NCBI GenBank assembly: GCA_016928095.1
Contig: JAFGLL010000017.1
Coordinates: forward strand, 1 to 34,276
Source of the DNA: Thermoplasmatota archaeon
Lineage (GTDB): Archaea > Thermoplasmatota > Penumbrarchaeia > Penumbrarchaeales > Penumbrarchaeaceae
Direction of reading: 5' to 3'
Length of the DNA: 34,276 nt
Made by a program: the position numbers and the translations under genes. Below the pieces are notes generated by a model. The model saw only the letters and a program-made list of their open reading frames with translations, had not been told where the DNA came from and searched no databases. The first letter of the stretch is position 1. Each line of letters starts with the position of its first letter. Positions 2 to 33,075 of the stretch are shown in pieces.

Positions 2-1513
2 ATCCAATTCGTTTCCGGCTGCGGGGAGCAGTCGATGTCCACCCTGTCGGTGGACATACTTGCCTACGACCAGGCCCAGGAGGGTGATATCAAGGCCGAG
101 GACCTTCTGAGGTTCGAACAGATCTGCACCCAGGGGATCCAGCACGAGCTCATGTACCTGGTGGATGGCAAGAACGATCCAGGGAGGGGCATAGTATGGT
201 TTCCCGGGGACCAGGATGTTCACCCATGGCTGACCTCATGGGGCCTGCTGACCTTCCAGGATGCTATAGATGCTGGATTCGTGATCGACCCCAAGATCAT
301 CTCCGACATGCAGCTGTGGCTCTCCAAGCAGCAGGAGAGCGACGGAAGCTTCAGGTTCCCGGACTGGGGTCTCTACGAGACGACGAACCCCATCCTGCAG
401 GCCAAGAAGGTCTCGACCACTGCATACATAAGCAGAGCACTCCTCTACTCCGGATACGACAGGTCATCTAGTATCATAACGAAGGCGATGTCATACATTT
501 CCGGCAATGTTAGAGCGTCCGAGAACTGGGATGACCCCTACACTCTCTCGCTCGCCCTGATCGCCCTGGAGATGGGAAGAGGCGATACGCAAACAAGGAG
601 CGATCTTGCATCCCGCATCTCCGAACTGGCACGGACCGATGAGAACGGTGATATCTACTGGTCGACCGACAACAGCATGATCTCCGACGGAGAATCGGGA
701 TATTATGGAAGATGGTCCAACGGCAAGACGATCGAATGTACGGGGTATGCCATCATGGCGCTGGAGGCAAGAGGAGGCTACATGGGCATCACCCAGAAGG
801 CCGTAAGTTATCTTCTGAACCACCGCTCCAACCTGGGAGGTTTCTCTTCCACCCAGGACACGGTTGTCGCATTCCAGGCGCTGAAGTCCTTTGGCAAGTT
901 CAGCATAGAAAGCATGGACATTACCGTGGACGTGAACGGCGAGACAGTGGACACGGTCCACATGGACAAGGAGAACAAGGACATGACCTTCCTCATAGAC
1001 CTCAGGGGGCACCTTGCGAACACTATGGAAGTGAAGCTCGCGTCGAAGGGAGCCGGTAATGTGATGTACCAGGTCTATCTCGAACAGTATCTCCCTTGGA
1101 ACATTATCGGAGAGGACGAGCCCCCCGAACTGGATCTGCAGGTTACCTACGACACCACGAGCATAAAGGTCAACGACCATATAAACGCAAGCGTGGAACT
1201 CACTTACAACGGGGATGCAGTGCAGGTCAGGATGGTCGTCATCGATCTCAGGGCGCCGGTTGGGTTCTCGTTCGAGGCCTCCGACTTCGAGGCAATAGAC
1301 GAGCAAGGTATCATAGACTTTTTCGAGATCTCCGACAGGCAGTGCCTGGTATACATCGAGAGCCTTGACAAAGGTGTTTCCGTAAAGTTCGATTACAGGC
1401 TGAGAGCGAATAAGGTGATCGAGGGCAGCGTTCAGGACGTGGCGGTCTGGGACATGTACAACACCGATCTTCGATCGGAGGAGCCACCGGTCACGTTCAC
1501 ATCGATCGAATAG
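2..1513 (+). CDS. Alpha-2-macroglobulin family protein, C-terminal part (5' end outside window)
   Basis: The reading frame is open from the first bases, and residues encoded at 17-31 read GCGEQ, the thioester motif of complement C3/alpha-2-macroglobulin proteins. In that family the Cys and Gln form an internal thioester that covalently traps attacking proteases. The first ATG (base 35) lies just after this motif, so it is an internal Met and the gene starts upstream of the window. About 300 residues follow with the alpha/alpha-toroid pattern of the thioester domain (WLTSWGLL, STTAYISRALL, ECTGYAIMALEA), then a CUB-like strand segment and a C-terminal receptor-binding-like domain from about residue 375 (PPELDLQVTYD). 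No membrane anchor is seen at the C terminus, so an N-terminal lipid or membrane anchor would have to lie upstream. The protein presumably acts outside the membrane. Family assignment is strong; the physiological role is inferred. Confidence 0.9.
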   Translation: MQFVSGCGEQSMSTLSVDILAYDQAQEGDIKAEDLLRFEQICTQGIQHELMYLVDGKNDPGRGIVWFPGDQDVHPWLTSWGLLTFQDAIDAGFVIDPKIISDMQLWLSKQQESDGSFRFPDWGLYETTNPILQAKKVSTTAYISRALLYSGYDRSSSIITKAMSYISGNVRASENWDDPYTLSLALIALEMGRGDTQTRSDLASRISELARTDENGDIYWSTDNSMISDGESGYYGRWSNGKTIECTGYAIMALEARGGYMGITQKAVSYLLNHRSNLGGFSSTQDTVVAFQALKSFGKFSIESMDITVDVNGETVDTVHMDKENKDMTFLIDLRGHLANTMEVKLASKGAGNVMYQVYLEQYLPWNIIGEDEPPELDLQVTYDTTSIKVNDHINASVELTYNGDAVQVRMVVIDLRAPVGFSFEASDFEAIDEQGIIDFFEISDRQCLVYIESLDKGVSVKFDYRLRANKVIEGSVQDVAVWDMYNTDLRSEEPPVTFTSIE

Positions 1514-19633: not shown

Positions 19634-22600
19634 CTACCATTCTTCAAGGTCCTCATCCTTGAGCCCGTATCCATCCTCATCGATATCAATATCGTCCAGC
19701 TCATCATCCTCGTCATCCCAATCGACCGTGCGTATATCCTCCCTTTTCATGAACCATATCAACACTGCCGCGGCAAGAAGGACCAAAAGGACAACGAGAG
19801 CTATGAGGATGATGACGGTCCATGAGCGCTCCTCCTTAGTGGGGCCGACATCTTCTTCCGTGTCGGGAGGGTCCGTTACCCATACCCTGTGAGACACGTT
19901 CCTTGTATTGCCGGAGCTGTCCGTCACTGTGAGGTCGAACGTGTAGTTACCGGTGTCATCGAAAAATAACTGGACCCCTGCACCTTCCAGTTCCATCCAC
20001 CTGAAACTTACACCGTATTCGTTCAGGAAATTTATCTTCCACTGATATGAGGAAGCGTTCAGGGGATCCCCGGAATTATCGGTGAAGTCCGTGTAAAGCT
20101 CCAATCTCTCACCGAATATCACCTGTTTCGGTCCCGAGATACCGCCGGTAGGGGGGGTGATGTCCCTGACGGATATCGAGAACGTCTTGACATCGGAATT
20201 GCCGGATGGGTCCTCGACCATCAGTCTTCCAAAATATTCACCCGGATCCGGGAATACGACAGTGGTCTCCCACCTGCTGGAGTAATGAACGAAATCATGA
20301 ACCCCGGTAAAGGTCCAGTTATACACCGCGCACCTGTCCAATGATGTGCAGGGACCGTTGTCCCTGGTTCCACTGGATGAATACTCGACCGCGGTATCCT
20401 CATCGACAATGAAGCTTCCTTCATAGGATATTTCTGGTGAGGTGGTATCGACCACGATAAAAGCAAGCTCCGTTGATGCCTTGTTCCTGGCCGGATCCTC
20501 AACCGACAACTTGATGGTGTGAACACCCAGCTGCTCGATGTCGATATGGAAGTTCTCGCCTTCACCGAACCTCCTCTCGCCCGTTGGCATCACGAGTTCC
20601 CATGTTTGACCGCTGATGATCATGAAGTCGGGGTCGATGCCAAGGTCATAGGATACAGAAGTGATATCGATCCCCTCTTCCGAGGCCTCGACGGTGGTAT
20701 TGAACTCCTCTATCACGGGTACGGGAGACAATGTATCCAGTGTGAATTCGTACCCGACGGTGGTCGGGCCTGCACCATGATCGTCGTATCCCACAAGCTT
20801 CACACTGTTGTATCCTTCGTATAGATCGAGGGACAGACCGAATATACCGGACTGCCCGGCCGTGGTCTCGTTCTGTATGATGCCGTTAACATGCAGTTCG
20901 ATCCTGGAGAGAGGGTCGACCTTTCCCAGAAGGTTCGAATAATGGGCAACATTGGTTATGCGGTCGGGATAGGATCCCCATATCAGGACCGAGGGCCCTA
21001 TATTGTCCACGGAAAAACCGGAGAACTCCGACCATTCGCCCGTATTGGGGACCTCGTCCGTACCCCTGGCCCTGATGATCATATTATCAAGGTTCCCCGG
21101 GCCCCCAGCTTCCATCCTCGTGTCCCAGACGAAGATCGGACCCGTGGAATTTCCGGCTGCCACCCAGTTTCCGTTATCATTGGCAATACCGTCCCTGTCC
21201 CGATCGTTATAATATTGGACCTCAACACGTTCAAGGTCATCGTCACCGTCGAATTCAATGGTTGAGTTCCCGGCGAGGGTGAAGGGTTCGTTGATCAGGT
21301 CCAGTGATGGTGGCGTCATATCCATTGGAGTACCAAACGCCCAATGGGACGGGGATGACACGTTGCCATCCTCCCAGACAGACGATACCCTGAAGTAGTA
21401 TCCGACACCGTCAGCGAGGCCGGTCACCTCCGTGTAGTTCCCACTGTTATCGGTATCGAACAGCTCGATCCAGTTCTCCATACCATGGTCCAGTTCCAAT
21501 GGTGTACGGTTCATGAATATCCTGTGATGGTCCAGTTTCACACCCCCCGTCCTCTTCCAGCTGAGTCCCACTGCGTTACCATCTACCCGAGCCTCTGCAA
21601 CGAGATCCGTTGGAGCGCGGGGGGAGGATGTATTTATTTCGAGACCGAACTGTCCGTAATACAGGTAGCCGAGATAAGGATCCCGGACCCTCAGGATCAC
21701 ATGACCATTGATCCTCATCTCCTCGGAAACGTAGAAGAGCGAGGAATAGTTGCCATCGCCCGCGATGTCATCGCCCTGAGACGGGGACCCCTTATCGTTG
21801 AGCTCGCGCCATCCGAGATCGGACCCCTCGATCGACCATTCCACATCGGTTCCGGGAACCGATCTACCCTTGAAAGTGATCGTATCGCCAATCGAGTACA
21901 CCAGATGGTTCTCGGGAAGGTACCACAACCCTGCATGTGTCGGCTTTTTTGCATAGGCTGTTGCCTGATAGAAGTATTCGAACAGGGAATTCGAGTACCA
22001 GGCATAGATCGTGTCCTCGGGCTCGACATAGAGTCTGTATTGCTCATCGGTGCTTGTATTCGATGTCCTGATGCTTCCGACGAACGAACCATACTCGCCC
22101 TCCTCAAAGAGGGTCACGGTCTTTCCAAGGGGTTGTGATGTGGATGTGATGTTAACCTGGATGCTGGCCGAACCGATCAGGTCCTTTCCTGTAAGCCGGA
22201 TCTGTATGAGGCTGTCATCCGTCGAATAGAACTGTCTGTCGAAGACCATGGAGTTTGTGATGAACTCGGTGATGTTCCCCGACGCCACGATGGCGAAATG
22301 CTGAGGGCCTAATGGAACGTTGGCTGCACGGACCTCCATCTTCCACCAGCCCATTGACGGGTCAGGGATCGTCACTCCTTCCACGGGGTTCAGGTCATCC
22401 TTGGTATCGTTGAATGGTGCGCTGATATCGTTCCCGTGGTAGATCGTCCCGTCGGGTGCGATTAGGACCAGGTCGAGATCGTTCACCAGCTGTTTGCCGG
22501 AGAAGTAGGAGCCGGGATGGTCGCTCCATGCGAGCGTCACCCTCAGTTCTTCGTTGGAATTGACCCTGAACACCCTGCTGAAGTTCTGACCTGTCGAAAG

Positions 22601-24385
22601 CCCGTCCCAGTTGTTCTCGTAAGTGAGCTTCCCCTGGTCAGGGTAAAGAGAGGCCTTCATATTCACACGCCCCCATCCCTGGTCGTTGTCGGGACGGGAG
22701 TTGATCTCCTGGGTGGTCGGGTTCGAGCTCCCGTACTGCCCGGGGGTCATGTCAACGGCGCCGTTGATGAGGGTTGCTTTCACTAGGGAGGCGAGGATAC
22801 GGTCCTCCCCCATGGTCTGGTCGTAGTACTGCCTGACGAGGGCTGCCGTTCCCGCGGTTATCGGGGTGGACATCGAGGTCCCGCCCATGTAGAGATAATC
22901 CGTATTGTAAACACCCCATCCGGTGATCGAGCCGGGTACGGATGACCTGGTCGAGAGTATGTTGGTCCCGGGTGCGACCACATCTGGCTTGAGCCTGTTG
23001 TCAAGTGTGGGGCCTCTCGATGAGAATGCTGCAAGTCCATCAGCATTGTTGGAGACATGATCGTTGCGAACAGGGTTCATTGGATATCCCCATCCCTGTC
23101 CCCATGTCCCCTGCAATCCTCCGGAAGATCTGACGTTCTCCGAAGCGCCCACTGTCAAAGCGGATTTTGCCGTTGCCGGAGGTGATACGGAACCTGGATC
23201 GATCTTGCCGTCCTGGGGTGAGGTATCGGTCCCATCGTTCCCCGCAGAGAAGAGAATGAGCTGATCGGGATAATGGAACATCGACCAGTCGACATCGTAG
23301 CTTTCACTCGTGTAGCGGCCCCAGAAGTAGCTTCCGTCCGAGCCCCAGCTGTTGGTGTGAACCCGGGCTCCAAGGTCATATGCCTGTTTGAAGAGATCGG
23401 ACAGGTTGCCCGGTGTAGCCAGTGTATCGGAATCCGTTGCAATTCCCTGAAAGACGATGGTGGCATTCGGTGCCATTCCCTGTATGCTGCCGCCGGAGCT
23501 GGAACCGTCACCGGCCACAGAACCTGCCACATGTGTGCCGTGACCGTAACCGTCATCGGGGGAGGTTCCGGCCCAGTTCCGGAATATCACCCTGTTGTCG
23601 AAGTCGTCATGGATGTCCCCGGTCACGTTGTGAGCATCGACGCCTGTGTCAAGTCCAGTGTCTGCAATGGCCACCGTCTGGCCCGTCCCGTCAAGACCAC
23701 CGATCGATCGGACCGTGTCCACATCGAGTATCCCCGATGATATCTCATTCATCAATACGTGTTCTGCAAGGGGCTCCACCCATTTCACATCCGTTATCGA
23801 TGCCGCTCTCATAAAATCCAGGGTTCTGACATGATATCTGGTGAGTGATGATCGCTCGGTGGGGCCCAGTTCAGACAGGGCTTCAAATGCATCATCGGAG
23901 GGATAGAAGGTCTCGACCACCATGGTGCTGAAGTGGTCCGATAGTTCTCCTTCTTGAAGGACCTCCCAGATAACCGGTGACAGTTTCATGGAGGACGGCA
24001 GGGGAATGTGGCGGATATCCTCTCCATAGAGATGGTCTATGCTCTTCGTTCCATCCCTCACCACGAACGCGTTATCAGGGAGGTAATCTAGCAACGTCAT
24101 ACCGAGCTCTCTCAACATTTCGATGTCCGTCTCCTGTATGATATGATCGAACTGGACTATGTGGTAGGGAGTCGTATCATCCTCTGGGATGTAGGGGAAG
24201 AACAAGGTCACCTCCTTCATGTCGATAGGACCCCTTAGGGTCCAAAGGAGAGGATGCTCCTTGACCTGTAACGGATCGTATGCTCCGGCCGTCGTTATGA
24301 TCGATAAAGTTGAAAGGAGCACTGTTGCAGTGAAAAGTATCGATGCGATCCTTGAATTGACCGAGCCGCCATCGCCAGTTCCCAT
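19634..24385 (-). CDS. Giant membrane-anchored subtilisin-like (S8) protease
   Basis: The protein has 1583 residues. After a signal peptide and a propeptide-like region comes an S8 catalytic domain with Asp in AIADTG (D242), His in GYGHGTHVAG (H282), oxyanion Asn in FSAGNDG (N383) and Ser in GGTSMSTP (S504). A jelly-roll domain as in KP-43-type proteases follows (about 588-705), then further beta domains, a fibronectin type III domain (about 921-1018), PKD/Ig-like domains, one membrane helix (about 1521-1545) and a very acidic cytoplasmic tail containing TVDWDDEDDE. All catalytic residues are present, so it is probably an active cell-surface protease for peptide feeding or surface-protein processing. 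Start: ATG 24385 gives a good signal peptide; the frame stays open to an ATG at 24541 but the added residues look non-coding. Confidence 0.92.
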   Translation of the reverse strand: MGTGDGGSVNSRIASILFTATVLLSTLSIITTAGAYDPLQVKEHPLLWTLRGPIDMKEVTLFFPYIPEDDTTPYHIVQFDHIIQETDIEMLRELGMTLLDYLPDNAFVVRDGTKSIDHLYGEDIRHIPLPSSMKLSPVIWEVLQEGELSDHFSTMVVETFYPSDDAFEALSELGPTERSSLTRYHVRTLDFMRAASITDVKWVEPLAEHVLMNEISSGILDVDTVRSIGGLDGTGQTVAIADTGLDTGVDAHNVTGDIHDDFDNRVIFRNWAGTSPDDGYGHGTHVAGSVAGDGSSSGGSIQGMAPNATIVFQGIATDSDTLATPGNLSDLFKQAYDLGARVHTNSWGSDGSYFWGRYTSESYDVDWSMFHYPDQLILFSAGNDGTDTSPQDGKIDPGSVSPPATAKSALTVGASENVRSSGGLQGTWGQGWGYPMNPVRNDHVSNNADGLAAFSSRGPTLDNRLKPDVVAPGTNILSTRSSVPGSITGWGVYNTDYLYMGGTSMSTPITAGTAALVRQYYDQTMGEDRILASLVKATLINGAVDMTPGQYGSSNPTTQEINSRPDNDQGWGRVNMKASLYPDQGKLTYENNWDGLSTGQNFSRVFRVNSNEELRVTLAWSDHPGSYFSGKQLVNDLDLVLIAPDGTIYHGNDISAPFNDTKDDLNPVEGVTIPDPSMGWWKMEVRAANVPLGPQHFAIVASGNITEFITNSMVFDRQFYSTDDSLIQIRLTGKDLIGSASIQVNITSTSQPLGKTVTLFEEGEYGSFVGSIRTSNTSTDEQYRLYVEPEDTIYAWYSNSLFEYFYQATAYAKKPTHAGLWYLPENHLVYSIGDTITFKGRSVPGTDVEWSIEGSDLGWRELNDKGSPSQGDDIAGDGNYSSLFYVSEEMRINGHVILRVRDPYLGYLYYGQFGLEINTSSPRAPTDLVAEARVDGNAVGLSWKRTGGVKLDHHRIFMNRTPLELDHGMENWIELFDTDNSGNYTEVTGLADGVGYYFRVSSVWEDGNVSSPSHWAFGTPMDMTPPSLDLINEPFTLAGNSTIEFDGDDDLERVEVQYYNDRDRDGIANDNGNWVAAGNSTGPIFVWDTRMEAGGPGNLDNMIIRARGTDEVPNTGEWSEFSGFSVDNIGPSVLIWGSYPDRITNVAHYSNLLGKVDPLSRIELHVNGIIQNETTAGQSGIFGLSLDLYEGYNSVKLVGYDDHGAGPTTVGYEFTLDTLSPVPVIEEFNTTVEASEEGIDITSVSYDLGIDPDFMIISGQTWELVMPTGERRFGEGENFHIDIEQLGVHTIKLSVEDPARNKASTELAFIVVDTTSPEISYEGSFIVDEDTAVEYSSSGTRDNGPCTSLDRCAVYNWTFTGVHDFVHYSSRWETTVVFPDPGEYFGRLMVEDPSGNSDVKTFSISVRDITPPTGGISGPKQVIFGERLELYTDFTDNSGDPLNASSYQWKINFLNEYGVSFRWMELEGAGVQLFFDDTGNYTFDLTVTDSSGNTRNVSHRVWVTDPPDTEEDVGPTKEERSWTVIILIALVVLLVLLAAAVLIWFMKREDIRTVDWDDEDDELDDIDIDEDGYGLKDEDLEEW

Positions 24386-24434
24386 GAGTGTCCACATCCA
24401 ATATAGCGGTGCTGCAACCGAGAAAGTAATGGGG

Positions 24435-24442
24435 TTATATAA
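24435..24442 (-). promoter_or_regulatory. TATA box for the protease gene
   Basis: A perfect palindromic TTATATAA (AGTTATATAACCC on the minus strand) predicts a transcription start near 24411, giving a leader of roughly 26 bases to the chosen ATG at 24385 and supporting a start inside the longer open frame. Confidence 0.5.
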
Positions 24443-24551
24443 CTGGGTTGGCCCTAAAATATCACTACATGGGTCATATCGGTCGATCGACCGGTCTTCC
24501 ACGGCTACGATGGATCGATCGGCGTCAGTATACACGGTCATCTATCAGAGG

Positions 24552-25210: not shown

Positions 25211-26380
25211 TCACTCATCAAGCGCGGGTCCATGTGGTGTCTTCCGGGTAGAGGGGATCTGCGACATCTCGAAGAAACGCCTGATGGAACCTATCTTCTC
25301 CAACGCTTCCACGGGAACCTCCACATGAAGCTCCCTGACCAATGACATGAACCACATCAGCACGTCCATGATGTCGATCAGCTCCTCATCTGACAGGTCC
25401 TCCATCCCTTCGAGGGCCTTCGTCTGGAAGGACATGATGACATCCTCGTAATCGGTTATCATCTTGAGCGCAAGAAGTTCAATGAACGGGCGGGGGTCAC
25501 CCTCATCGGCCATCTTGAGCCTCTTCAGATATTCCTCCCTGTCGGACATTTCTATGATGAGAGGGGGGTATCCACTCCTTTGTAGAATGAAGTTCATGAG
25601 CTCCCTTGCCACCCTTCCGTTCCCGTCGACGAAGGGATGGATCTGGACGAATCGGTAATGGAAGATACATGCAAGTTCGAAAACTGTCAGACCGTCCGGG
25701 TTCTCGCGGTACCAGTCTATCAGCTCCCTCAATTCGTCCTCGACGAAAAGGGCAGGGGGTGGATCGAGGGAGCTTCCCACCACACCCACATGTATCCTCC
25801 TCATGGTCCCCGCCTGGTCATCGTCTATATTCCTCTGGACCAGGGAATGGACCTTCTTGACAAGGTCGATGGTGATGTCGGACCTGTACGACCTGATGTA
25901 GCGGTGAAGACGTTTGAAGTTCTCTATCTCGTGGATCTCTCGAAGCTTTTTCCCCCTGGGAGCGATCCCGTCCTCGAGTACCAGGGCCGCTTCAACGAGG
26001 GTTAGCGTATTCCCCTCGATGGCAGTGGTATGGTGGATGTATCTCACCATCAGATCATCCTGGTACTTCTCGAGTTCGGACGGATACAGGTCCTCGAGAT
26101 ACGTGCTGTAGAAGTTCCTGACCATGGCAAGGTATATCGAATAGAAACCGGAAAGGTATCTCATGTTCGTATCCTTCGCCTCCATATAGACCCGGTACAG
26201 AACAGCTTTCAGGTCCATGAGCTCCCTGAAGAACTCGGTCCTCTCCTCGAGTACCTTCTGGTCCAAATCGACCGGACCGACGGACCTCTCGAACCTCTTC
26301 TTCTTTCCCTTGTAGGACGAGGTCGCAGAGACATAGAGGTATCTGTTACCCTTCACGGTCCTTTCCTTTACGGATACCAT
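25211..26380 (-). CDS. Fic domain protein with N-terminal inhibitory motif
   Basis: This 389-residue cytoplasmic protein has the Fic core motif HPFVDGNGR at residues 248-256, a complete match to HPFx(D/E)GNGR, so it should be able to transfer AMP or a related group from a nucleotide to a protein hydroxyl. An N-terminal inhibitory motif of the [S/T]xxxE[G/N] type is visible as TTAIEG (118-123), where E122 would block ATP binding; this makes it an auto-inhibited class II Fic protein. The flap region RIHVGVVGSSLDPPPALF also fits. The C-terminal extension is helical. A TATA box 25 bases upstream suggests a leaderless mRNA. There is no adjacent antitoxin gene, as expected for self-inhibited members. 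The target is unknown. Confidence 0.92.
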   Translation of the reverse strand: MVSVKERTVKGNRYLYVSATSSYKGKKKRFERSVGPVDLDQKVLEERTEFFRELMDLKAVLYRVYMEAKDTNMRYLSGFYSIYLAMVRNFYSTYLEDLYPSELEKYQDDLMVRYIHHTTAIEGNTLTLVEAALVLEDGIAPRGKKLREIHEIENFKRLHRYIRSYRSDITIDLVKKVHSLVQRNIDDDQAGTMRRIHVGVVGSSLDPPPALFVEDELRELIDWYRENPDGLTVFELACIFHYRFVQIHPFVDGNGRVARELMNFILQRSGYPPLIIEMSDREEYLKRLKMADEGDPRPFIELLALKMITDYEDVIMSFQTKALEGMEDLSDEELIDIMDVLMWFMSLVRELHVEVPVEALEKIGSIRRFFEMSQIPSTRKTPHGPALDE

Positions 26381-26669: not shown

Positions 26670-28505
26670 CTAATATCTACCCGTGACCTTCAGTATCCTG
26701 TCCTGCAGGTCCCGCTTCTCCTCGTCCATGAGAATGCTCTTTGCGGCGTTTATCTCCCTCATCTTATTATGGGCCTCGTCAATATCGAAGTCCTCTTTGT
26801 GCATGACCTTATCGGGGTGGTATTTCGCAGCAAGTGTCCTGTATGCTCTCTTGATCTCCTTCGCAGATGCTTTCCTGTTGACCCCCAATGTTCTGTAACA
26901 GTCCACCTCGTGGATCCTTGTGGAGACGTCGAAATGCCTCAGGATCTCTATCATCTGCTCCCGGTCTTCGTGTGATATACCGTGGGTCTGATGTTTCTTC
27001 CAAACATATAAGGCCACCATCAGGAACATCAGGAAGACCACCACAAGGATGGAGACCAGAAGGACCACCATCCTCCTCTGTATCTCGTCGACATCATCGG
27101 CAGATGTCTGTTCAAGAGTGATCCAGCCCATGTCCGTCGTGACACCGGGTTCAACGATCACTGTGGTGTTGAACCCGGTAAAGCCGATCTTATTGACACT
27201 TAATAGATACGAACCAGCTTCTGTCGAGATGTTGAAAGCCCCCCCCCTGTCGGACCTGTCACTCCTGTTGTTCTCAAGGCTCACCCTCAGGTTGGATAGG
27301 AAATTGCCGTAATTGTCAACCACGAAACCCCGGACCCATCCCGTATCGGTCGTGTTGAAGGTCCAGGTGAGATCCATCAATCCATTCCCAGAACGGTCCC
27401 TTCCCGACATCGTGACGGTGTATCCCGTTCCATATCCCAGGGACCAGTTGCGCACAATGTCTATCTGACCTCCGTTAACGGTTACATTAACTGGTATACC
27501 GTTCACATATACCTCGATCGATCCGGGAACGAGCGTCTCGGATGTTGCGATCCATATAGACGCATCGACCCCAACATCGTCCCCCTGGGGGTGACACTGG
27601 ACCACATAGGGAGCGAAAGTATCCACCTCCACCGACAGTGTCACGGTCCTTATGTTACCCGCTTTGTCGAATGCCGTTACCCTTATCTCGTGGCGGCCGT
27701 CCGCAACACTCTGGTACTCGTGAGGGGCAGGTTCCTTGTAGGAATATGGTTGTGTGGAATCCATCTGCACCTCGAAATAGGAGATCCCTGAAAGCGCGTC
27801 ATCCCCGTCCCACGAGACCCGAACGGTTGAGCTATTCAGACCCTCTTCGTCATCGGGGGAGAGGACCTCCAGATCGGGCCTCTCCCTATCAAGTACGATC
27901 TCTCTGTTCGAGGCGAGGGAGTTCCCTGCCCGGTCGAATGCTCTTATCTCGTAGATGTGCTGGCCGTCGTATTCGAGCGACACTATCTCTCTGTTGGCAC
28001 TCCCCTTATCCACCCATTCCCCGCCGTCCAACCTTGTTTCTACATGGTCCATTCCCGAGCCATTGTCCGTTGTTATCCATTCCATCATCACAGGATCCAG
28101 GTTCGTGAAGAGTGTTGCGGTCTGTGTGAACTGAACATTGGGATCGCAGGTGTCAATGCGGAACGATACGGATACGGATGCATCCTCCCCGAACCCGTTC
28201 ATGCATCTTACTGAAAGGTCATGATACCCCTCCGACAGGCCATTTAGCAGAGCAGTTGTCTCATTTCCGACGGAAATGTAGGGAGCAAGGTCAAGGCTGT
28301 ATTCGCTGGTGATGTTCTCATCATTGTTTTCGAACTTCCATATCGCTTCCATTGTCGTGTCGTTGTAGGCCTTGTCGTTCTCGGGAAATGTTATCACCAC
28401 GAACAGGGCGGTCCTTGTCGGATCGGGTATCGCCTGGACCGGGAGTGTGGAGAGCAGAAAGCACAATGAAAGAAATATTGAGAGTATGGGTGCAAAACTC
28501 CTCAT
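26670..28505 (-). CDS. Membrane protein with extracellular Ig-like domains and cytoplasmic C-terminal DnaJ (J) domain
   Basis: The 611-residue protein has a signal peptide (MRSFAPILSIFLSL...), then beta domains with repeated FDRAGN/FDKAGN ends (about 45-300). A Big_5-like domain (about 300-388) and a carboxypeptidase-regulatory-like domain (about 390-465, GFVVDNYGNFLSNLRV) follow. Next come one strong membrane helix (about 479-502), a basic stop-transfer KK, and a J domain (about 536-600) with YRTLGVNRKASAKEIKRAYR and the essential HPD (563-565) in YHPDKV. J domains stimulate the ATPase of Hsp70 (DnaK). Topology puts the J domain in the cytoplasm and the Ig-like part outside. Start: ATG 28505 lies 25 bases from a TATA box; an ATG at 28541 is in frame but less likely. 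It is paralogous in its last five elements to the gene upstream. Confidence 0.88.
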   Translation of the reverse strand: MRSFAPILSIFLSLCFLLSTLPVQAIPDPTRTALFVVITFPENDKAYNDTTMEAIWKFENNDENITSEYSLDLAPYISVGNETTALLNGLSEGYHDLSVRCMNGFGEDASVSVSFRIDTCDPNVQFTQTATLFTNLDPVMMEWITTDNGSGMDHVETRLDGGEWVDKGSANREIVSLEYDGQHIYEIRAFDRAGNSLASNREIVLDRERPDLEVLSPDDEEGLNSSTVRVSWDGDDALSGISYFEVQMDSTQPYSYKEPAPHEYQSVADGRHEIRVTAFDKAGNIRTVTLSVEVDTFAPYVVQCHPQGDDVGVDASIWIATSETLVPGSIEVYVNGIPVNVTVNGGQIDIVRNWSLGYGTGYTVTMSGRDRSGNGLMDLTWTFNTTDTGWVRGFVVDNYGNFLSNLRVSLENNRSDRSDRGGAFNISTEAGSYLLSVNKIGFTGFNTTVIVEPGVTTDMGWITLEQTSADDVDEIQRRMVVLLVSILVVVFLMFLMVALYVWKKHQTHGISHEDREQMIEILRHFDVSTRIHEVDCYRTLGVNRKASAKEIKRAYRTLAAKYHPDKVMHKEDFDIDEAHNKMREINAAKSILMDEEKRDLQDRILKVTGRY

Positions 28506-28525
28506 CGTAAGCTTCAAAGCTTGTA

Positions 28526-28537
28526 GATATTTAAAGG
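28526..28537 (-). promoter_or_regulatory. TATA box for the shorter J-domain protein gene
   Basis: CCTTTAAATATC on the minus strand is centred about 26 bases before ATG 28505. It lies in the 46-base gap after the stop of the larger paralogue, so the second gene has its own promoter even though the genes are adjacent. Confidence 0.55.
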
Positions 28538-28551
28538 TCACCGGATAACGG

Positions 28552-31500
28552 TCATAGCTCCCGGTCCAGCAACGAAATGTCGTAGGCCTGTCTCCTCACA
28601 GGGTCCAGCAATGTATCCTTGGCCTCGTTGAGCTCTCGCATCATCGCGTGTATCTCCTCGGCGGACATGTCCACACCGGAGGCCTGCAGTTTGTCAGGGT
28701 GGTACAAATATGCCAAACTGCGGTATACCTTCTTGATCTCGGCCGACGACGCTGCTCGTTCCACACCCAGCACCGAATAATAATCGGGGGAGCCGCTGTA
28801 ATCGTATATCTCAAAGTCACTGCCATCATCCTCTTCCATCTCGATATAGGCAGGGGTCTCCCCTTGCGGGCCTCCATCCTCTATGAAGAACTCGACCTCG
28901 GACGACCTCCTCCTGCGTATGACCAGAACAAGCAGGAAGACCAACAGGACCAGGACCAGAACGAGAGACAACGAGACCAACACCATGATCGCAGACCGAT
29001 CCCATGTATCCTCTCTTGACAGTCTGATGGTCCCGAGGTCCAAAAGCTCCCCTGATCCAACGGAGAACTCGATGGAATTCGATCTGTAACCGGACCTCTC
29101 TACTTTTATGATATGACCACCAGGGGCCACATCGATCTTGAAAAGACCTGCATCATCCGTCACGACCATCCAGTCATCGTCCAATGTGACAACAGCGTTC
29201 TTCATGGGTCTTCCGTCATCTCCCTGGACCACTCCAGTGACGGTGCCCCATGGGATCGTCGAGAACTGCCATTCGGACCTTTTCAAGCGGTTCCCGGCCA
29301 GGTCATACCCGTCCACGGAGACCTTGTAAGTTGAGCCATGGATCAGAAGACCGTTCTTGTTCAATGTCAGACGGTTCCCTTCCCAGGAGAGGTTCCCGGA
29401 AACGCCTTCCACGGTGAACTCCACCGTACCTGCGAGCATCTCCTCGGAGAATACGGCGTATATCTCGGTATCCAGAGGGATCTCGTTCCCTGTAGGCCAC
29501 CGATCGATCACCTCCGGAGCTGTCCAGTCCACACTGACGGTCCACTTCACGGTCCGGATGTTCCCGGCACCGTCCGTTGCATCCAGTTCGATGTTGGAGG
29601 TTCCCTGCTCGAGCTTCAGTGTGAACAGTGTGGCTGTTCCCGGTAGGCTGTAATACTGACCGTTGTGCATGACACGGTAGGAGGAGACACCGGACAGACC
29701 GTCCACGCATACCCATTCGAGCTGAATATCATGATCGTTCGTGTGTACAACGGAACTGTTCTGTGGTTGGATGCTCGTCAGGACCGGGGCCTCTGTATCA
29801 TGGATTATGGTCAAACCCATGACCCGGGCGTTCCCCGCCAGGTCCACGACCTCGAGGTTGAATGTGATCCTCTCCCCGACAAGCTTCAGCGATACATGGT
29901 CCTCATATATCGGTCCTGACCACTCACCCTCATTCAAACGGTACCTGGAATGGGCGATCTCCCCAACGGTATCAACGGCGCTCCAGGATACCACGAACGA
30001 GTCCTGGTTGGTGAAGACCGGGTCGTAATGCTTCAGCTGGACCTCTGGCGGGGAGACATCGATGTGAAATGATACACTGCTTTCCGCGGTCATCCCTGCA
30101 CCGTTGACCGCAGCCACTCGTGCAAGGTGGGGACCGGGCGGGAGCCCAATGAGAAGGTATCCTGTCTCAAGTTCGACGGGTAAAAAAGGCCCATTATCAA
30201 GGGAGAAATAATAACCGACCACCCCCGACCCATCATCGGTTCCCTCCCATGAGAATTGAACGTTCCCGGTGTTCAACCACTCATCGTTCAAGGGGTGAAG
30301 GATATTGAGTACGGGTCCCGTATCGTCCGATCTGCCGGACACGATATCGGATGGTTCTCCGGGTCCCAGGTCATTGTAGGCCCTTACCAGATAATGATAT
30401 CTTTTGCCCGGATCCACATTCCCGTCATCGAACTCAAGGGTGGAACCATTCGTTGTTTGATAGAAGAATATATGTCTTGTGTCATTACCTCTATATATCC
30501 TGTATCCCAGGATATCCTGGTCCATCACATATTCAGGCGATCCCCATGCGAGCCTTATGGACCCGTTCCCCATTGACGCTGTAATATTTCGGGGGGATGA
30601 TATCAATGTTATCGGAGAATATGCAAGAGGTCGAGAATCCTTCAGGTCCCCGCCTTCGATCTTGTAATAGGAGTCGACGATGCCATCCCCATCATCGTCG
30701 GGTCGGTTCTTGTCAGAATAGTAGTTCCCGTGCTCCTTGATATCGTACCATCTGCCCGAGATGGAATCATCATAGACCTGGAGACGGAAGGTGAAGTAAT
30801 CCGTATTGGTCCCTCTGTTCAGGATGAATGCGTTGTTAATGTAATATCCCGAGGAGTCTCCAGTGGCCCTGATGGCATGGTTCGAATTTTGGTAGAAAAG
30901 ATTGAGTTTCACCTCGGAAGACCTGCTTTCATGAAGGCAGAGGCCAAAATTATTGTTGCGGATGGTGTTGTTGATCAATAGAGAACCGTGGGATGCGACG
31001 AGGTCCATCCCGATGTCCGTCCTCGATATCGTGTTGTTGGCGAAGATGGACCCACAGGATGAGATGCAGACGATCCCCTGTCCCGTACTTTCCACCTTGT
31101 TTCCCTCGATGCAAAGGTCATCGCATTCGTGGAGCGACATCGCTTCTCCAGGCAGATCATACAGGCTGTTCCCGCTTATCTTGAGGTCTCTGGAGGCCAA
31201 CAGGTTCATACCCCGATCAACCAGTTCAAGATAGCAATCCGAGATCGAAGAGTTATGCATTCCGAGAAATTCTATTCCGTTCCCCGGACCATTGAAAGTG
31301 CATCTGGATACGTCGACCATCGAAGAATCGGACATGAGGATCGAGTTGAGGGAGTTGTTCATCATCTTAGAACCGGATATGATCACCTTGCTCACGTTGG
31401 ACCCGCAAAAACCCAATTCCGAATCCTTGAACAAGCAATCATCGAATGTGATGTTGGCCGAGTGCTGTAAAATGATCCCCATCGGTGCTCTCCATGTCGA

Positions 31501-32904
31501 AAATGTCTCGAATGCAATGTCCTCCGAGCCTCCCACCAGAAGATTGCAGAATTCGTTGTAGGCCACCTTGCTGGATAGGAATCGGACGCCCGATGAACCC
31601 ATAACAACGATACCCACCTCCACTCCGTAGATGTACTGGTCAAGGAACTTGACATCGGTTGAGCATATGACGAATATCTGTCCGTAGGAGCTGGTGAACA
31701 CCCGCCCCTCGAGATCCTCCCCGTTCAGGTACAATATGTGTCTCCCTTCGTAAGTATTGTCGAGATCGACATATTGCGAGGTATAGAGGGGCATATCCCG
31801 TGTCCCCCACCCATCAACAACTGACCCGAAGGTCAGACCTCCATTGTATAAGGAGTTCGATAGGAACTCATTGTAATACGACCCCTCACCGACCCTGATG
31901 GCCGTGGACCTGTCCCCCGAATTCACTTGATCGCCGGTAATGCTGTTCCCTTTGGAACCCAGCAGTATGATGCCTTCATGTTCTTCAGTACAGATATCGC
32001 AGTTCTGGATGGTGTTGTCATGGCTCTCTTCAAGGAGGATACCTGTTGATGGGTAGATAAGGGTGGTATCCTGGATGGTGTTGTGATGGGAGTCCACAAC
32101 GTGAATGCCGTATTCGCTGGAGCCGATGGAATTTTGAGATATGTTCGTGTATGAACAGGAACTGAGGGACATCCCCTCGGTCAACGAAGATCCGATATCA
32201 TTTCTCAATATCTCCAACCGGGCTGAACCGATGATCAAGATGCCTGTACCCGCATTGTCGATATCATTGTCCAGGACCATAACATCGGAGCAGTTGAAGA
32301 CCTGGAAGGAATTCCTGACATCGTTGAAGGTCGAACTCTGAAGCGTTATATTCGGTCCTGAGTTGTTGATCCTGACCCCAAAACCGGACCCTTCCGAGTG
32401 CTTCGCATTATCGATGATCATGTTGCTTGTCCTGTTCAAACTGATGCCGTTCTCGTTGCCGTTCATGGTCATGTTGAAGACGGTCCCGTTGGAGCAATTT
32501 CGCAGGAAAAGGGCTCCCGTCTCCGTATCCAGGACCTGAGGATCAACGTTCGAGGAGTTTGTCAATGTGCAGTTGCTGATCACGAAGTGGACATCGGTGT
32601 TCTCTATCCTGATACAGTTCGATCCGTGTTTGGCATCTATCATGAACTTATCTATTATGTAAGGGTCCGATGCAGAGCCGCTTCCGTTCCAATCCTCGCT
32701 CGAGGCCGTCGAGGCGAACTCCGAGTTGCCATCGATCAAGATCGCGTCATGGTCCGTGAGAGTTGTGAAGAGCGGTGTACCAGGTCCATGAGCATCTGAT
32801 CGAACGTTGGTAAGAGTAACCAAAAGCAAGAGAACTGCCATCGAACACGCTAGGGAACGAAGGACCCTCTTCACCTCCCTGGGTGAAAACAGGTTATTTT
32901 CCAT
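28552..32904 (-). CDS. Membrane protein with beta-helix (NosD-like), Fn3 and Ig-like domains and cytoplasmic C-terminal DnaJ (J) domain
   Basis: The protein has 1450 residues. An N-terminal hydrophobic segment (about 16-36) acts as signal. A right-handed parallel beta-helix with NosD/PbH1-type repeats follows (about 70-760; many N-x-I...S-x-x-N-x-I turns such as GNSLYDLPGEAM). Then come a fibronectin type III domain (about 768-860), Ig-like domains ending DLAGN or DGAGN, a Big_5-like domain (about 1128-1218), a carboxypeptidase-regulatory-like domain (about 1220-1294), a membrane helix (about 1305-1329) with RRRR stop-transfer, an acidic linker and a J domain (1374-1450) with HPD at 1402-1404. 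Beta-helices of this type often bind or cut polysaccharides; no catalytic residues are obvious. Start: ATG 32904 precedes the signal segment; the frame extends to 33063 but that part overlaps repeats and the tRNA flank. Confidence 0.88.
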   Translation of the reverse strand: MENNLFSPREVKRVLRSLACSMAVLLLLVTLTNVRSDAHGPGTPLFTTLTDHDAILIDGNSEFASTASSEDWNGSGSASDPYIIDKFMIDAKHGSNCIRIENTDVHFVISNCTLTNSSNVDPQVLDTETGALFLRNCSNGTVFNMTMNGNENGISLNRTSNMIIDNAKHSEGSGFGVRINNSGPNITLQSSTFNDVRNSFQVFNCSDVMVLDNDIDNAGTGILIIGSARLEILRNDIGSSLTEGMSLSSCSYTNISQNSIGSSEYGIHVVDSHHNTIQDTTLIYPSTGILLEESHDNTIQNCDICTEEHEGIILLGSKGNSITGDQVNSGDRSTAIRVGEGSYYNEFLSNSLYNGGLTFGSVVDGWGTRDMPLYTSQYVDLDNTYEGRHILYLNGEDLEGRVFTSSYGQIFVICSTDVKFLDQYIYGVEVGIVVMGSSGVRFLSSKVAYNEFCNLLVGGSEDIAFETFSTWRAPMGIILQHSANITFDDCLFKDSELGFCGSNVSKVIISGSKMMNNSLNSILMSDSSMVDVSRCTFNGPGNGIEFLGMHNSSISDCYLELVDRGMNLLASRDLKISGNSLYDLPGEAMSLHECDDLCIEGNKVESTGQGIVCISSCGSIFANNTISRTDIGMDLVASHGSLLINNTIRNNNFGLCLHESRSSEVKLNLFYQNSNHAIRATGDSSGYYINNAFILNRGTNTDYFTFRLQVYDDSISGRWYDIKEHGNYYSDKNRPDDDGDGIVDSYYKIEGGDLKDSRPLAYSPITLISSPRNITASMGNGSIRLAWGSPEYVMDQDILGYRIYRGNDTRHIFFYQTTNGSTLEFDDGNVDPGKRYHYLVRAYNDLGPGEPSDIVSGRSDDTGPVLNILHPLNDEWLNTGNVQFSWEGTDDGSGVVGYYFSLDNGPFLPVELETGYLLIGLPPGPHLARVAAVNGAGMTAESSVSFHIDVSPPEVQLKHYDPVFTNQDSFVVSWSAVDTVGEIAHSRYRLNEGEWSGPIYEDHVSLKLVGERITFNLEVVDLAGNARVMGLTIIHDTEAPVLTSIQPQNSSVVHTNDHDIQLEWVCVDGLSGVSSYRVMHNGQYYSLPGTATLFTLKLEQGTSNIELDATDGAGNIRTVKWTVSVDWTAPEVIDRWPTGNEIPLDTEIYAVFSEEMLAGTVEFTVEGVSGNLSWEGNRLTLNKNGLLIHGSTYKVSVDGYDLAGNRLKRSEWQFSTIPWGTVTGVVQGDDGRPMKNAVVTLDDDWMVVTDDAGLFKIDVAPGGHIIKVERSGYRSNSIEFSVGSGELLDLGTIRLSREDTWDRSAIMVLVSLSLVLVLVLLVFLLVLVIRRRRSSEVEFFIEDGGPQGETPAYIEMEEDDGSDFEIYDYSGSPDYYSVLGVERAASSAEIKKVYRSLAYLYHPDKLQASGVDMSAEEIHAMMRELNEAKDTLLDPVRRQAYDISLLDREL

Positions 32905-32978
32905 ATTATAATTTTTGGTGCATATGTGCCGGAGACATGATCGTGGGAAAATTGTCCATTGTGATGAATAAGACCATG

Positions 32979-33017
32979 GTTCACTGCGTTCACTCTGCAG
33001 ATTATGGGCCCATAGGG
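32979..33017 (+). repeat. Direct repeat copy A (contains a copy of the tRNA 5' end)
   Basis: This 39-base unit starts GTTCACTGCGTTCACTCTG and ends ATGGGCCCATAGGG. It matches copy B with two mismatches and carries the first 12 bases of the tRNA-Arg (GGGCCCATAGGG) with no tRNA body after it. It lies just upstream of the large J-domain gene. Confidence 0.8.
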
Positions 33018-33028
33018 CATGAAAAGGA

Positions 33029-33036
33029 TTTATAGA
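33029..33036 (+). promoter_or_regulatory. TATA box of tRNA-Arg
   Basis: TTTATAGA (in GGATTTATAGAG) is centred about 31 bases before the mature tRNA 5' end, giving a short 5' leader. It lies between the two repeat copies; copy A has no equivalent box at the same distance. Confidence 0.5.
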
Positions 33037-33075
33037 GTTCACTGCGTTCACTCTACAGATCATGGGCCCATAGGG
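33037..33075 (+). repeat. Direct repeat copy B (overlaps the tRNA 5' end)
   Basis: This is the second 39-base copy, offset by 58 bases from copy A, ending at the twelfth base of the tRNA. Within each copy the block GTTCACT itself occurs twice, nine bases apart. The segment ATGGGCCCAT is a perfect 10-base palindrome. Confidence 0.8.

Follow-up and report, generated by a model that had tools for sequence, protein, structure and literature searches.

J proteins determine where Hsp70 works. Among membrane-anchored J proteins, the closest in topology to those considered here are DjlA and Pam18, both of which lack a large ectodomain. DjlA of Escherichia coli works on membrane clients in concert with DnaK, and for this it needs both its transmembrane (TM) helix and its J domain (PMC11709261); the tail-anchored proteins DjlB and DjlC are membrane J proteins for HscC, an Hsp70 at the plasma membrane (PMC8215388). 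The window analyzed here covers 34,276 nucleotides of contig JAFGLL010000017.1 (C62), from a 2.8-Mb archaeal metagenome-assembled genome (MAG; G000) that is 96% complete in 124 contigs. A search for archaeal SSU sequences recovered no 16S gene from this MAG, and its assignment to the archaea is based on ribosomal protein S28e. It contains two tandem minus-strand genes, P0001 and P0002, which lie 10 nucleotides apart and encode membrane J proteins. Whereas the prokaryotic membrane J proteins that we found in the literature have little or nothing outside the cell, several families described here, the P0001/P0002 type among them, have hundreds to more than 1000 residues predicted outside and a conserved J domain inside.

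In both P0001 and P0002, a large ectodomain is joined through a single membrane helix to a J domain at the C terminus, in which the HPD motif is intact. They share the order Ig-like, Big_5, carboxypeptidase-regulatory-like, membrane helix and J, and a beta-helix and a fibronectin type III (Fn3) domain are present in P0002 only (Table 1). A first-pass annotation had read this layout from the letters of the sequence, and Pfam, hydropathy and AlphaFold2 now bear it out. The Pfam DnaJ model matches P0001 at 7.9e-18 (64.8 bits, amino acids (aa) 547-612) and P0002 at 3.6e-16 (59.4 bits, aa 1427-1495), against a curated cut-off of 27.8. Big_5 and CarboxypepD_reg exceed their cut-offs in both proteins, Big_13 is matched in P0001, and NosD (4e-46), Beta_helix (1.7e-43) and fn3 (9.3e-11) are matched in P0002 alone. 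A single strong helix precedes each J domain (mean Kyte-Doolittle hydropathy 3.34 in P0001 and 3.43 in P0002). The AlphaFold2 model of P0001 (predicted local distance difference test, pLDDT, 83.5) shows beta-sandwiches, then a long helix (481-519) and a J domain made of four helices; that of aa 90-910 of P0002 shows a right-handed beta-helix (pLDDT 80.6). Both reading frames are open, with no stops and no frameshifts. Position 32904 (Met54), already chosen as the start of P0002 in the first pass, is likelier than 33063 because the signal peptide then sits at the N terminus.

By the numbering of E. coli DnaJ, the J domains of P0001, P0002 and all aligned sister proteins retain HPD, Tyr25 and basic residues at positions 26 and 36, the sole departure being at position 25 of L093. 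Most of the extra J domains in this archaeal class, Penumbrarchaeia, have a longer loop after HPD and a helix III of the form 'M..xNxAK.xL'. In a tree of J domains, which has 89 rows, 68 columns and many unresolved forks and gives no count of membrane-anchoring gains, the J domains of canonical DnaJ cluster together with 98/91 support, and every extra J domain, whether from a membrane protein or a small soluble one, falls outside this cluster. The J domains of P0001 and P0002 are not each other's closest relatives in this tree. A recent chance fusion of a DnaJ gene is ruled out: the tree separates these J domains from the DnaJ clade, and HPD is invariant in the families that they make up. By sequence, both proteins belong with the class C membrane-anchored J proteins, which share only the J domain with DnaJ and carry other domains and a TM helix. 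The G/F region, C-terminal client-binding domains and zinc finger of the class A and B proteins (DnaJ/CbpA) are absent in the Pfam scan, and DnaJ models of NCBIfam match the J part alone, far under cut-off.

A cytoplasmic location of the J domain in P0001 and P0002 is strongly supported by their sequences, because signal peptides, ectodomain sequons and basic residues after the membrane helix all place it inside, as the first-pass annotation had it. In 10 sampled membrane-J proteins, basic residues (KK, RRRR, RR) follow the TM helix, the ectodomains are strongly acidic, and N-X-S/T sequons exceed shuffled expectation in every case (10 vs 4.7 ± 1.8 in P0001; 23 vs 16.0 ± 3.7 in P0002). The cytoplasmic parts of P0001 and P0002 contain zero sequons, and one or two occur on the inner side of a few sister proteins.

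The fusion of ectodomain, membrane helix and J domain is not confined to the window. An orthologue of P0001 with the same architecture is present in a second genome of the genus (G001, L050). Between these two proteins the juxtamembrane linker and the J domain have diverged less, at 87% and 83% identity, than the ectodomain, at 64%. Proteins of other genera (L048, L057, L076, L078) have the fusion too, and two of them (L076 and L078) also carry a linker-related motif, (G)HED..I.; in the other-genus genomes G003, G005 and G006 the fusion takes the form of 1291-1542-aa beta-helix/Ig/Big_5/CarboxypepD/TM/J proteins. Another order of the class (G010) encodes a 2495-aa beta-helix/fn3/TM/J protein that extends about 145 residues beyond the J domain (L093:1496-8980, plus strand). 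No counterpart of P0002 was found beside the P0001 orthologue in G001, and the tandem pair is therefore not universal. It is barely credible that the fusion is an artefact of annotation or assembly, in which separate surface-protein and DnaJ-like genes were joined wrongly or the J likeness arose by chance. The MAG is indeed fragmented, but the same fusions recur in independent MAGs with uninterrupted frames, invariant HPD and strong J E-values, and this conservation across genomes refutes the artefact.

Going beyond the first-pass annotation, we find a class-wide expansion of J genes with several unrelated types of ectodomain. Our survey covered this archaeal phylum, with 12 genomes of the class; the class assemblies are mostly fragmented and incomplete, with some J genes at contig ends, so that counts of absence are lower bounds. 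Of the eleven J genes in the window genome, at least seven encode membrane proteins by hydropathy (P0001, P0002, L060, L095, L088, L067, L087). Genomes of the class carry 2-12 J genes each, and the remaining members of the phylum that were listed carry 0-3; in the part of that sample listed in full, no J frame is longer than 515 aa. Among 62 non-canonical J frames of the class, 20 are at least 600 aa long, compared with 0 of 55 J frames outside it; this purely descriptive count leaves canonical DnaJ of the class out of the 62 and is uncorrected for relatedness. Outside the J domain, the membrane-J proteins fall into the window type, the L060, L095 and L088 families (the last also in G010) and a six-helix polytopic family, all with orthologues in other genomes. 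The design recurs in several versions among relatives, in several families and in another order.

The J domain is an added module on a type of surface protein that exists both with and without it, because J-less paralogues in the same genome share the ectodomain order and the TM helix. A profile search of the window genome with the window type recovered these paralogues, whose inner tails are short ('ILRGARGRRGGIEEE' and 'SYRARDHDIPEE', for example, in L107 and L110). A scan of named genomes with the single sequence of P0002 gave one irrelevant J match (L044). A different arrangement is seen in the genus g2, in which the gene upstream of an intact-J protein encodes a paralogue that retains J helices I-II, its tail breaking off short of HPD. 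Both g2 species have a similar remnant, and no remainder of the J domain follows downstream in any frame. Natural J-plus and J-minus paralogues of one surface protein are available for comparison.

On balance, we think that P0001 and P0002 are probably membrane-anchored class C co-chaperones. Their ectodomains would determine the sites on the inner membrane face to which DnaK is brought, and the clients would probably be surface and membrane proteins that are being made or remodelled. We propose that a signal peptide exports the large N-terminal part, that one helix crosses the membrane and that the C-terminal J domain is left in the cytoplasm. There it would recruit cytosolic DnaK and trigger its ATPase, and Hsp70 would be loaded onto clients beside the inner membrane face. 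The outer beta-helix or Ig-like part may set the location by binding to the envelope, whether to glycans, the S-layer or partner surface proteins. In carrying out this task the J domain would be permanently available at its site and not be switched on by a ligand. DjlA, a TM-anchored J protein that acts with DnaK on membrane clients, provides a precedent for this reading.

Potential Hsp70 partners are at hand, with two DnaK genes in the window genome, each adjoining a DnaJ gene. One of them (L012, G000:C97:26760-28475, plus strand) has a C-terminal extension with two zinc-ribbon-like CPxC motif pairs set in K/E-rich linkers, and the other (L013, on C116) lacks this extension. A zinc-ribbon-like DnaK tail is found in six genomes of the class (G000, G003, G005, G010, G011 and, with three motifs, G008), the further tailed proteins being L117, L118, L119, L120 and L121. 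Outside the class, G035 has a DnaK frame of comparable length (740 aa).

The gene neighbourhoods of the sister families also bear on the proposed role. In the polytopic-J family, a gene for an exported FKBP prolyl-isomerase lipoprotein (c7) is adjacent in five of six loci and was not seen at the sixth (L071). The L060 family adjoins a giant protein with archaeal-pilin-N and CARDB domains (c5) in five loci, and most of its loci also have a gene for a zinc-ribbon coiled-coil protein (c6) alongside; a gene for a polytopic membrane protein (c3) is adjacent in all six loci of the L088 family. Because the FKBP lipoprotein and pilin-N/CARDB neighbours are surface-protein contexts, we count them in favor of co-chaperones for surface-protein biogenesis. 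The same c5 and c6 neighbours would also suit an auxilin-like device, in which the ectodomain would mark the spot and the J domain would bring Hsp70 there to dismantle membrane-attached assemblies, such as division rings or the bases of surface filaments. Disassembly by Hsp70 and J proteins is well established, as for auxilin, but no filament or coat gene adjoins the window pair, and we consider this role quite unlikely.

Another possible role of the J tail is in self-biogenesis: it would recruit DnaK for the chain that bears it, or for partners exported alongside, while export slowly proceeds, and would do nothing afterwards. The carriers are long, beta-rich exported proteins, and a folding-helper gene flanks the polytopic family; however, equally long J-less paralogues exist, and the J domain, being C-terminal and made last, would come too late for co-translational export. 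Such a tail seems slightly less probable still than a disassembly device.

The first-pass annotation had called the pair surface receptors or adhesins and suggested that they could recruit Hsp70 to the membrane on engaging a ligand, or else help to fold and export surface proteins. A ligand-gated receptor, in which binding of a glycan or a partner cell clusters or re-orients the protein and switches the access of J to DnaK as an outside-in signal, strikes us as rather unlikely, although more plausible than disassembly or self-biogenesis. The layout is that of a type-I receptor with a conserved juxtamembrane cytoplasmic element, several different ectodomains are set on one J output and each is kept across species, and the beta-helix fold resembles polysaccharide-acting enzymes and tailspikes. 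Yet no recurring signalling partner genes lie beside the pair, the J domain by itself is without a known on/off switch, and the ectodomain order is also found without J, as for structural surface proteins. A fold search with P0001 returned generic Ig, cadherin, S-layer and adhesin matches only, with low template-modelling scores, and points to no ligand. The FKBP neighbourhood of the polytopic family leans toward surface-protein folding or export over ligand-gated signalling. A broader version, with comparably doubtful prospects, is a class-wide outside-in Hsp70 receptor system in which varied sensing or adhesive ectodomains would share a J output on one or two DnaKs, one of them with the zinc-ribbon tail typical of the clade; such a system would have no described counterpart.

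Several observations weigh against the co-chaperone role that we favor. No translocon gene adjoins the window pair, and its neighbours (Fic, subtilase, peroxiredoxin) give no direct pointer to export. The retention in g2 of a paralogue without HPD means that some members may act without Hsp70, and receptors would be just as compatible with the variety of conserved ectodomains.

Fic enzymes can AMPylate Hsp70, as FICD does BiP (PMC4739761), and for this reason the link between Fic and J genes is worth noting. A Fic gene follows the window-type J gene in G000, G001 and G005; the orthologues beside the membrane-J genes share 90% identity (L050) and 65% identity (L057, in G005, of another genus) with that of the window, and G005 has two Fic genes only. 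The neighbouring Fic protein is a possible DnaK-modifying enzyme, which we offer solely as a lead, as the evidence comes from two genera and is thin. Elsewhere in the window, a gene at 35-1513 (plus strand) encodes alpha-2-macroglobulin-type TED and receptor-binding domains, here in an archaeon, and may run past the window start; another at 19634-24541 (minus strand) encodes a subtilase of 1635 aa that has both PKD-like and fn3-like regions and is probably a protease of the cell surface.

Table 1. Coordinates of the membrane-J genes, their parts and associated genes (plain numbers are window positions; other loci are given with their identifiers).
Feature	Position	Strand	Basis or remark
P0001, membrane J protein, 623 aa	26670..28541	-	GTG start; alternative start Met13 at 28505
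P0001 Ig-like beta-sandwich domains, outside, aa 44-307	27621..28412	-	Pfam and AlphaFold2; Big_13 match aa 277-308
P0001 Big_5, aa 307-397	27351..27623	-	Pfam
P0001 carboxypeptidase-regulatory-like domain, aa 403-471	27129..27335	-	Pfam
P0001 membrane helix, aa 491-511, then YVWKKH	27009..27071	-	hydropathy and AlphaFold2
P0001 juxtamembrane cytoplasmic linker, aa 516-546	26904..26996	-	87% identity with same-genus orthologue
P0001 J domain, aa 547-614, HPD intact	26700..26903	-	Pfam and alignment
P0002, membrane J protein, 1503 aa from longest reading-frame start	28552..33063	-	start probably at 32904 (Met54)
P0002 probable signal peptide region, aa 54-90	32794..32904	-	hydrophobic stretch aa 64-82
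P0002 right-handed beta-helix, NosD/Beta_helix type, about aa 95-800	30664..32781	-	Pfam and AlphaFold2
P0002 fibronectin type III domain, aa 822-910	30334..30600	-	Pfam
P0002 Ig-like region, about aa 915-1180, homologous to P0001 Ig-like region	29524..30321	-	
P0002 Big_5, aa 1180-1269	29257..29526	-	Pfam
P0002 carboxypeptidase-regulatory-like domain, aa 1274-1348	29020..29244	-	Pfam
P0002 membrane helix, aa 1362-1382, then RRRR	28918..28980	-	hydropathy
P0002 J domain, aa 1427-1495, HPD intact	28579..28785	-	Pfam and alignment
Fic gene, HPFVDGNGR and TAIEGN (inhibitory-helix-like) motifs	25211..26380	-	next to window pair
Exported FKBP-type prolyl isomerase lipoprotein gene	L067:7861-8781; L058:2697-3704	-; +	next to six-helix J protein
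Giant pilin-N/CARDB gene and zinc-ribbon coiled-coil gene	L060:1-4020; L060:6394-7869	-; +	flanking L060
Tandem J-remnant paralogue of intact-J protein	L076:3-1994; L078:673-4374	+	two species, one genus (g2)

These proteins make it testable whether archaeal Hsp70 serves the cell surface, a question on which we found nothing published. Our literature search, whose coverage did not extend to large surveys of J architectures (e.g. Barriot et al. 2020), returned no description of archaeal or ectodomain-bearing membrane J proteins, and we found no counterpart of the design among described membrane J proteins. An archaeal J-domain fusion of another kind is DnaJ-Fer, a ferredoxin-J fusion of Thaumarchaeota (PMC3564930), for which, in contrast to the window proteins, no ectodomain or TM helix is described.

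Comparison with individual systems brings out what is shared and what differs. Like DjlA, the window proteins have one TM helix and a C-terminal J domain, in their case predicted to be cytoplasmic; DjlA, however, has a short periplasmic N-terminus and a TerB-like domain, whereas the window proteins have no TerB match in Pfam and about 450 to 1300 residues outside. An identity with DjlA was rejected, its equivalog model scoring 40.8 and 27.1 bits against a cut-off of 162. DjlB and DjlC differ in having an HPE motif and no ectodomain, where the window proteins combine HPD with a huge one. The likeness to Pam18/Tim14 of the mitochondrial import motor is that of a membrane-anchored J protein placing Hsp70 at the membrane, but Pam18 is small and translocon-bound, and the window pair has no translocon link. 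The tandem of intact-J protein and degenerate-J paralogue without HPD in g2 (L076, L078) recalls Pam18 and Pam16 by analogy only; the degenerate J domain there is cut before HPD rather than full-length, and both J domains of the window pair are intact. Sec63 is also a membrane J protein that brings Hsp70 to protein translocation, and Sec63 chains are among the weak matches in a sequence search of the PDB with the J domain. Sec63 is polytopic, with its J domain in the lumen of the endoplasmic reticulum and Brl/Sec-contact domains, none of which is a feature of the window proteins. With NosD of the NosDFY system, finally, P0002 shares a right-handed beta-helix of the same Pfam family. It is not NosD itself, as the equivalog (TIGR04247) scores 89 bits against a cut-off of 300, and neither nosF nor nosY is present among the main neighbouring open reading frames scanned. 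NosD acts together with NosF and NosY, whereas in P0002 the beta-helix is one module of a TM-J protein.

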